Positions 54,196-56,607 of a DNA stretch of 64,000 bases are shown piece after piece. The stretch is taken from the NCBI GenBank assembly GCA_019359395.1, contig JAHHHK010000013.1, forward strand, positions 124,001-188,000, given 5' to 3'. Within the stretch, counting starts at the first letter, position 1. Each line of letters begins with the position of its first letter. The DNA is from Komarekiella atlantica HA4396-MV6 (GTDB lineage: Bacteria > Cyanobacteriota > Cyanobacteriia > Cyanobacteriales > Nostocaceae). The notes below the pieces were generated by a model. That model was not told the DNA's origin. It saw only the letters and a program-made list of their open reading frames with translations, and did no database searches. A program made the position numbers and the translations under genes.

Positions 54196-54524
54196 AGGAC
54201 TTACGTAAAATACCTCTCTAAATCTCATTCCTCTCGAAGTTCTGATGCCTGTCTTGAAAAGTTTCCTACGGCGGGAAACCCCGAAGTTCTGATCGCCGGA
54301 CGCCGGCGCTCAGACTTCTCTCCGCCTACAGAACTTTTCGCTGCGGCGGGCTGCGCCAACGGATAGCGCAGCGTAAAGCCTGCGGCATGGCTACGCTTAG
54401 AGCGAGTCTTCGCCCAAGGGGCGACGCTAAGAGCGAACGAGCGTCGGAAGCCTCCGCTCAGACTTCTCTCCGTGTCCTCCGTGCCTCTGTGGTTCGATTC
54501 TTCCGTAACTTGCGCGTAAGTCCT
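54196..54524. mobile_element. MITE-like element, AGGACTTACGCA family, copy 2
   Basis: The left end AGGACTTACGTA (54196-54207) and the right end CGCGTAAGTCCT (54513-54524) form near-perfect inverted repeats. Read on the minus strand it shares with copy 1 at 8773-8913 the landmarks GTTACGGAA, AATCGAACCACAGAGGC, TTTTCAAGACAGG and GAGATTTAGAGAGGTATTTT. It is 329 bases because a GC-rich palindromic block (about 54270-54440) has been added. No transposase. Confidence 0.75.
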
Positions 54525-54598
54525 ACTAAAAAGAAGAGTATCCAAAAGGCTTGTCACCATACATAGCCTCAGATAGATTCTGCTTTGGAGGATTGACA

Positions 54599-54647
54599 CT
54601 TGGTAAAATCATACCAAGCTCAGAAATACATACCAATTCAATTGGTA
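54599..54647. promoter_or_regulatory. Paired TTGGTA/TACCAA operator-like inverted repeats
   Basis: CTTGGTA-6 bases-TACCAAG (54599-54618) is followed by TACCAATT-C-AATTGGTA (54631-54647). Each carries two TTGGTA/TACCAA half-sites, the second in the opposite sense. A TTGACA promoter-like hexamer lies at 54593-54598 just upstream. The second palindrome ends 6 bases before the RHH-TOBE start codon, occupying the position of a ribosome-binding site. An autoregulatory operator is likely. Confidence 0.6.
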
Positions 54648-54652
54648 AAAAT

Positions 54653-55090
54653 ATGCCAAGAAAAGAACAAGGATGGGTTACATTTCAAACATCAGAAGAA
54701 GAGCGGAAAATTCTAGAAGAATTCTGCCAGCAGTCTCAGCGTACAAAAACTGAGATCCTCCGAGAACTAGTACGCGGTCTTAATGATCACTCTTCAGCCC
54801 CAGCACCAATACCAACCAAACAGAAGATCAAGGAGGATGTTGAGGCTCCTGATATAAAAATTAATAGTCAAAAGAAGCTATTAAAAGTTAGCTCCCGCAA
54901 TGTGCTTAAGGGAGTTGTTAAACGAGTGATTACAGGAGCGGTTAATACTGAGGTAACACTAGAGATTGTTCACAAAGTTGAGTTAACCTCGATGATCACT
55001 AGAGTGTCAGCAGAAGAATTAGAACTGTCTGAAGGAACAGAAGCCTATGCAGTCATCAAGTCTAACGATATAGTCATTGCTAGAGAATAG
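54653..55090 (+). CDS. RHH and TOBE-domain protein, possible molybdate/tungstate-linked regulator
   Basis: A 145-residue protein starting at the ATG 54653 (a frame extends upstream but overlaps the repeat region). The N-terminus (TFQTSEEERKILEEFCQQS, then TEILRELVRGL) has the pattern of a ribbon-helix-helix DNA-binding domain, residues about 8-45. A linker follows. Residues about 80-145 form a TOBE/Mop domain: RNVLKGVVKRVITGAVNTEV, EIVHKVELTSMITRVS and AYAVIKSNDIVIAR. TOBE domains bind molybdate or tungstate. The combination suggests a metal-oxyanion-sensing repressor. The paired palindromes directly upstream are probably its own operator. Confidence 0.75.
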   Translation: MPRKEQGWVTFQTSEEERKILEEFCQQSQRTKTEILRELVRGLNDHSSAPAPIPTKQKIKEDVEAPDIKINSQKKLLKVSSRNVLKGVVKRVITGAVNTEVTLEIVHKVELTSMITRVSAEELELSEGTEAYAVIKSNDIVIARE

Positions 55091-56212: not shown

Positions 56213-56460
56213 CTTTTGCCGCAGCAACGTTACAAATGAAGTTTCTGTGGTAACAACAGCTTGTCAGTTCGTTACCAACACAAGTTGTTTCGTTCAGAAT
56301 TCTTATCCGTTGATTCACAACACAAGTTGTTTCGTTTAGAACGCTTATCCGTTGTTAACAAAAATTTGTCTGTTCGTTCATAACACAACTTATTTTGTTC
56401 AGAACGCTTGTCCGTTGGTCATTAAAACTTGTCTGTTCGTTCAGAATGCCGAACTATTTT
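56213..56460. repeat. Degenerate ~42-bp tandem repeats
   Basis: TTCGTT(C/T)AGAA followed by (C/T)(G/T)CTTATCCGTTG and AACA(C/A)AA(G/A)TTG recurs with a period of about 42 bases between about 56257 and 56450, four or more copies with drift. It directly follows the HEAT remnant. No protein is encoded. Confidence 0.6.
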
Positions 56461-56607
56461 TGACAAAACTTATGCGATCGTTACAACAGCTTAAGCAAAA
56501 CTTATAAATAATCTGTTTGGCACTCTATAACTATAGTATTGATGCTTAATCAGCGTCGAGTAATTTACATTAGATTACACAACTGCAAAAGTTCTAAAGG
56601 TTTTTTT

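Follow-up and report, generated by a model that had tools for sequence, protein, structure and literature searches.

The gene at positions 54653 to 55090 on the + strand raises the question of whether a small protein with a ribbon-helix-helix (RHH) domain fused to a Mop-type TOBE domain represses its own expression in response to a metal oxyanion and, if so, which other genes it controls. The window analyzed is the whole stretch of 64,000 nucleotides (G000:C5:124001-188000) from a home genome of 7.78 Mb in 80 contigs. A preliminary description of the window had proposed an autoregulated, oxyanion-responsive repressor. The comparative evidence given below supports this prediction: the gene is paired with modA in relatives, the predicted operator recurs at modBC and at a second modA gene, and a near-copy is found at the main modA gene. 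We consider it highly probable that this protein, here designated RHH-TOBE, is a molybdate- or tungstate-dependent, autoregulated repressor of mod genes, with its DNA binding, ligand, and direction of control predicted from sequence comparison.

The gene begins with the ATG at 54653, and its stop codon ends at 55090, giving a product of 145 amino acids. A longer ORF starting at 54551 is unlikely to be the gene, because many relatives, although not the three closest, have stop codons in the frame upstream of the ATG and because protein conservation in relatives begins at MPRKEQGW, i.e., from the ATG at 54653. The protein is predicted to consist of an RHH DNA-binding domain (residues 1 to 45; 54653 to 54787), a Mop-type TOBE domain (residues 77 to 143; 54881 to 55081), and a variable linker of low model confidence that joins the two (residues 46 to 76; 54788 to 54880). 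The AlphaFold2 model of the whole protein is modest (pLDDT, 63.6; pTM, 0.38), with a pLDDT near 80 in the TOBE part. Among the best 80 of 199 relatives, the closest named ones belong to Nostoc and Roholtiella. A search of plasmids with the protein gave 34 records, all of them less than 60% identical and only one with at least 80% query coverage. In Trichormus sp. NMC-1, the gene is present in two tandem copies that have the upstream start region in common.

TOBE was the only Pfam family above its cut-off in the window protein (PF03459, residues 80 to 140; 52.8 bits versus a cut-off of 22.3). The protein also exceeded the cut-off of the NCBIfam Mop model TIGR00638 (69.1 versus 55 bits) and is thus assigned to the Mop/TOBE class by curated models of both collections. 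The best structural matches of the TOBE part were ModG (Z, 11.5), ModE (Z, 10.6), and MopII (Z, 9.4), and the SSRN and IKS stretches of this putative oxyanion-binding part are kept in 43 aligned close relatives. The RHH domain was recognized through the family. The window protein alone scored 14.8 bits against RHH_1, below the cut-off of 20.5, and a full-length family member that includes the TOBE domain (L196; 56% identical) passed it with 24.5 bits over residues 9 to 41. The AlphaFold2 secondary structure has a strand at residues 8 to 10 followed by helices at residues 15 to 27 and 32 to about 45-47; this strand-helix-helix of ~45 residues, together with the RHH_1 match in the family, supports the assignment of the N-terminal part as an RHH domain. 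Among 22 diverse members, all matched TOBE, six matched RHH_1, and two matched TraY, itself an RHH family, at E values of 0.05 or less. The RHH half was far more conserved than the linker in these members, and residues M1, P2, K4, Q6, G7, W8, T10, F11, Q12, and S14 were unchanged in all 22. A fold search with the RHH model compared one chain only and gave none with a Z score of at least 2, and a PDB sequence search with an RHH profile gave only weak matches, none of them named as an RHH protein. The fusion of an RHH domain to a Mop-type TOBE domain proposed in the preliminary description is borne out, with the TOBE part above the cut-offs and the RHH part recognized via L196.

By membership, the protein falls outside ModE: the ModE family model NF007957 scored 23.9 bits against a cut-off of 369 and covered residues 63 to 143 only, and the window protein has a single TOBE stretch, not the two Mop domains (DiMop) of ModE. 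The HTH and PBP_like domains of the VnfR type gave no match above cut-off in the Pfam search with the window protein.

The DNA upstream of the gene contains five half-sites, i.e., TTGGTA at 54600, TACCAA at 54612, TACCAA at 54631, TTGGTA at 54642, and TGCCAA at 54654, which form three overlapping palindromes rather than the two palindromes of four half-sites counted earlier. Palindrome A (TTGGTA-N6-TACCAA) occupies 54600 to 54617. Palindrome B (TACCAA-N5-TTGGTA; 54631 to 54647), the predicted core operator, lies at -22 to -6 from the ATG. Palindrome C (TTGGTA-N6-TGCCAA; 54642 to 54659) has a half-site in common with palindrome B and lies over the start codon. A TTGACA hexamer on the + strand (54593 to 54598) adjoins palindrome A without the overlap that had been described; a promoter scan of the + strand paired this hexamer with nothing, and we rejected it as the -35 element of a normal promoter. 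The + strand of palindrome A reads TGnTAAAAT at 54601 to 54609, a putative extended -10-like promoter element. The corresponding word TTGGTARRAT is found in 61 of 103 distinct upstream regions, so that the six bases between the half-sites of palindrome A are not random. Palindrome B is located at the Shine-Dalgarno place, as had been suggested, and a Shine-Dalgarno-like word (AGGA, GGAG, or GAGG) was found between -18 and -5 in only 1 of the 103 distinct upstream regions, window included. On the basis of the -10-like word in palindrome A and the near absence of Shine-Dalgarno-like words, the predicted operator appears to occupy the positions of both the promoter and the translation start.

Two known boxes were compared with these palindromes and rejected. 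Palindrome A can be read as GTA-N6-TAC, which has the wrong spacing for an NtcA site, quoted as GTAN8TAC (PMC4284476), and the ModE box differs from the upstream palindromes in sequence. Just upstream of the operator, the region from 54216 to 54530 is laden with repeats, such as a 23-nucleotide repeat at 54302 and 54450. Since the shorter upstream region of the relative L015 is without this stretch, it is probably an insertion. By eye, a degenerate tandem repeat of GTTCGTT/AACACAAGTTGTTTCGTT-like units was also seen at 56254 to 56470 in the window.

Conservation of the sites was evaluated in 81 regulator upstream regions, i.e., the window and the best 80 of 199 relatives. TACCAA-N5-TTGGTA was exact in 27 of these and within one mismatch in 28, while for TTGGTA-N6-TACCAA, 38 regions had an exact copy and a further 30 a copy with a single mismatch. 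When the set was reduced to 25 upstream regions with less than 80% mutual identity, the N5 core was exact in 7 and palindrome A in 12; in 200 rounds of shuffling, the highest numbers reached were 0 and 1, respectively. Not all relatives carry the N5 core: in one Nostoc clade, mainly palindrome A and the start-codon TGCCAA are retained, and exact sites before the regulator have disappeared from an Anabaena-like clade. The absence of the palindromes from relatives, which would have spoken against the preliminary description, was not seen overall, and half-sites were found again in many relatives within the Nostocales, although most of the 81 regions lack the exact N5 core and the Anabaena-like clade lacks exact sites.

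No molybdenum gene adjoins the regulator in the window. The lack of molybdate transporter neighbors noted earlier therefore stands for the window but not for the family, in which modA is found beside the gene in relatives. A member of the modA cluster was present in 23 of the 80 regulator loci (best 80 of 199 relatives) and was listed as the immediate divergent neighbor in 21 of these 23; in the other two (L038 and L089), modA is present and the regulator is missing from the ORF list. The divergent gap is 91 to 102 bp in 18 loci; in the remaining three, an ORF is overlong and the gap is only 2 bp. The identity of the modA cluster was tested with one member (L016), which matched TIGR01256 with 235 bits against a cut-off of 62.5. 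In a second set of 51 regulator loci, which partly overlaps the 80, modA was found in 18. When distances were read by eye, the regulator was at most 3 kb from modBC, or from the N-terminal part of modBC, in 17 of 99 family genomes, 16 of them with a divergent arrangement. The 1-kb modBC upstream region had been fetched separately for 12 of these 17 linked genomes and contained modA in 10. Based on the modA-bearing loci, the linked modBC genes, and the modA genes upstream of them, the usual linked arrangement is regulator <-> modA(-modBC). Another neighbor, a conserved gene for a 265-amino-acid protein (e.g., L051:3833-4627), occurs in 30 of the 80 loci and in one Nostoc clade is usually divergent from the regulator; searches with a single member found no match in NCBIfam at 1e-5 or in Pfam at 0.01.

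The preliminary description had called for a genome search for targets of the palindrome, and this search led to molybdate uptake genes. In the 7.78-Mb home genome, the exact 17-bp core TACCAA-N5-TTGGTA occurs in four places, compared with one for the reversed-pattern control. Two of these are ~448 bp before modBC and 179 bp before a second modA gene, the third is before the regulator, and the fourth lies inside a coding region labeled amidinotransferase-like by eye. The second modA-family gene (L102:7625-8470; G000:C25) has a product that shares 47% identity with the modA query and matches TIGR01256 with 160.7 bits. A copy with one mismatch, TACCAATTAAATCGGTA, lies ~70 bp ahead of the ATG of the main modA gene, which is located on a different contig and has further half-sites in its leader; this leader resembles those of divergent modA-regulator pairs, yet the regulator gene is absent beyond it. 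The home genome has palindrome A at six further positions; because no molybdenum gene is located at any of them, we discarded palindrome A as the diagnostic motif and used palindrome B instead.

A search of the home genome with the RHH-TOBE protein found one RHH-TOBE gene; the other three matches were a lone Mop gene, which is without the site, and two small-RHH loci. The five TOBE matches in this genome were RHH-TOBE, the lone Mop protein, two sulfate-type ABC ATPases, and an ABC ATPase assigned by eye; none of the five was ModE, and ModBC itself gave no TOBE match. A complete census of exact core sites was made in the home genome and four same-genus genomes (G000 to G004; 4 and 15 sites, respectively). 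The 19 sites comprised five at the regulator (including that of G003, which an overlong ORF had caused to be labeled as inside a coding region), five at modBC, one at the second modA gene, one at an HTH+PBP_like gene, and seven in coding regions, five of the last apparently in one and the same gene. No exact core site was found in other intergenic DNA of these five genomes.

In wider searches, at least one exact core site was found in 26 of 31 genomes. Twenty stretches picked by hand among the matches listed, mostly with A+T-rich spacers, contained 27 exact sites; 15 of these accompanied genes of the regulator, mod, mop, ModA-like, RHH-only, or HTH+PBP_like type, and the remaining 12 did not. 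In automatically given loci from more distant genomes (L117 to L131), 5 of 15 sites were at the regulator or modA and 10 were inside ORFs. A ModBC match was found in 96 genomes, and modBC upstream regions of 900 bp or less were examined for 70 of them. The core was exact in 4 of the 70 and within one mismatch in 16 (shuffle control at the same stringency: mean, 0.12; maximum, 3; 50 rounds), and the N4 and N6 spacings were found in none. Two of the 16 matches (L304 and L317) were inside the coding region of an upstream modA. The other 54 regions had no core site within one mismatch; since modA fills the DNA before modBC in 26 of 40 separately fetched stretches, the site could sit further out. 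Genomes lacking any match to the RHH-TOBE protein had the site in 0 of 5 modBC upstream regions, a number too small to weigh.

Some of these sites accompany genes other than mod. An RHH-only paralogue without a TOBE domain (L147:2397-2626; G005) lies beside a vnfV-like gene on a contig with a V-nitrogenase cluster. The start of this paralogue, MPRKEQGW, is preceded by an exact TACCAA-N5-TTGGTA that ends 6 bases away, almost as at the window gene. Exact sites are also found 261 to 287 bp upstream of three HTH+PBP_like genes (L142:5969-7168, L149:5848-7038, and L167:2-1240), of which the first was labeled by a family search (HTH_3, PBP_like) and the others as alike by eye. These sites suggest that RHH-TOBE may control another molybdenum-related regulator. 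A gene labeled HSDR_N-like recurs as well (L156:1213-3605, L191:1838-4288, L192:15629-18266, L198:1294-2220, and L150:4411-5382), with core sites (0 to 1 mismatch) upstream or in the gap; in L156, L191, and L192, a ModA-like gene lies divergently to it. The HSDR_N label was tested in L156 only and, like the amidinotransferase-like and vup-like labels used here, was otherwise given by eye or by neighbor similarity.

Because a rare site is common to the regulator gene and to molybdate uptake genes, RHH-TOBE very probably turns molybdate uptake off. In the proposed mechanism, the Mop/TOBE part would bind molybdate and probably also tungstate, and the oxyanion-loaded protein would bind TTGGTA half-sites through RHH dimers, at TACCAA-N5-TTGGTA as the core and at TTGGTA-N6-TRCCAA. 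At its own gene, the bound protein would cover the extended -10-like element and the ribosome-binding place, resulting in negative autoregulation. In trans, it would repress modBC, modA, and the second modA gene, so that high-affinity molybdate uptake would be shut at sufficient molybdenum and opened when molybdenum is scarce.

The same protein and sites could also operate in the opposite sense, with the apo-form binding DNA or acting as an activator (oxyanion release or activation under molybdenum starvation). Sequence cannot give the direction, and positions of about -180 and -450 are rather distant for sites of simple repression. However, the sites at the regulator gene overlap its leader and start codon, and in Anabaena variabilis both molybdate and tungstate repress the transcription of a molybdenum transport gene (PMC4284476); we therefore consider this alternative unlikely. 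It is also quite unlikely that the protein is mainly a Mop-like molybdate buffer with a side role and that TTGGTA is read by another factor, such as a VnfR-like HTH_3+PBP_like protein. Lone Mop proteins are indeed common, and the exact sites before the HTH+PBP_like genes of L142, L149, and L167 would fit such a factor, but none of the four exact sites in the home genome is at an HTH+PBP_like gene. The high conservation of the RHH half relative to the linker, the overlap of the sites with the beginning of the RHH-TOBE gene, and the nearly equal placement of the exact site before MPRKEQGW in the RHH-only paralogue all argue against a buffer.

The palindromes might instead be leader RNA hairpins that hide the start codon: TACCAA-N5-TTGGTA could fold as a 6-bp hairpin at -22 to -6, and 102 of the 103 upstream regions are without Shine-Dalgarno-like words. 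However, the element also precedes modA by ~70 bp, the second modA by 179 bp, and modBC by ~448 bp. In addition, one-sided changes per pair (19 to 45 of 103) exceed two-sided complementary changes (1 to 15 of 103), a weak comparison in that site-less upstream regions are included. We therefore regard the hairpin explanation as highly improbable.

A wider role for RHH-TOBE may be considered, although we put it forward tentatively and think it doubtful. MopII chains with a single Mop domain form a ring of six Mop domains. By analogy, a six-domain Mop ring of RHH-TOBE carrying three RHH dimers on flexible linkers might grip the three palindromes simultaneously, with oxyanion-driven ring assembly as the switch. 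The protein could be the top sensor of a two-tier molybdenum network, set over mod, mop, vnf-near ModA-like, and VnfR-type HTH+PBP_like genes, and help to switch between the Mo- and V-nitrogenases.

Molybdenum sensing and the regulation of its uptake in heterocyst-forming cyanobacteria are partly known, and the present analysis proposes a candidate protein, fold, operator, and set of targets. A close functional parallel is ModE of Escherichia coli and others, which likewise joins Mop/TOBE sensing to a DNA-binding domain; a molybdenum-dependent repression of uptake is predicted for RHH-TOBE in the same manner. The TOBE part aligns with ModE, but the ModE structure entries are titled DiMop and RHH-TOBE has one Mop domain. 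The N-terminal domain of ModE is a winged helix, whereas that of RHH-TOBE is an RHH domain. The operators also differ, with the ModE consensus being ATCGCTATATA-N6-TATATAACGAT (PMC2700814) and the predicted RHH-TOBE core being TACCAA-N5-TTGGTA. RHH-TOBE is thus not ModE by membership but probably works like it.

In A. variabilis, a "modE homolog just upstream of modA" has been suspected as the regulator of molybdenum transport (PMC4284476). It shares with RHH-TOBE the position beside modA and the suspected role, and the passages of that review concerning it give neither an operator nor a fold. The regulator is beside modA in Anabaena azotica (L087), Nostoc parmelioides (L092), and others, which suggests that the A. 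variabilis "modE homolog" probably belongs to the RHH-TOBE family; the response of the transport gene to tungstate fits a Mop sensor. VnfR1 and VnfR2 of A. variabilis are also Mo-dependent repressors in heterocystous cyanobacteria (PMC4284476). However, by synteny (vnfH, a vnfV-like gene, and vup-like ABC genes, labeled by eye), the genes in the VnfR position appear to be of the HTH_3+PBP_like type, as matched by the relative in L142, and we ruled out RHH-TOBE as VnfR on this basis. In its passages on molybdenum uptake, the same review gives neither an operator nor a regulon for the regulator in heterocystous cyanobacteria, which it simply calls a probable "modE homolog" (PMC4284476). Literature searches for an RHH/Mop/TOBE/molybdate regulator and for the operator word gave no description among the matches listed, which largely exclude subscription journals.

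NikR carries a sensing domain on an RHH domain, as RHH-TOBE does, but senses Ni(II) through an ACT-type domain, whereas RHH-TOBE is predicted to sense an oxyanion through TOBE. MopII, ModG, and tungbindin have the Mop fold and the SxRN motif in common with RHH-TOBE but are without a DNA-binding domain and serve in oxyanion binding or storage. If the proposed role is correct, RHH-TOBE would represent an independent answer to the problem solved by ModE, with the same oxyanion sensor placed on a different DNA-binding fold.
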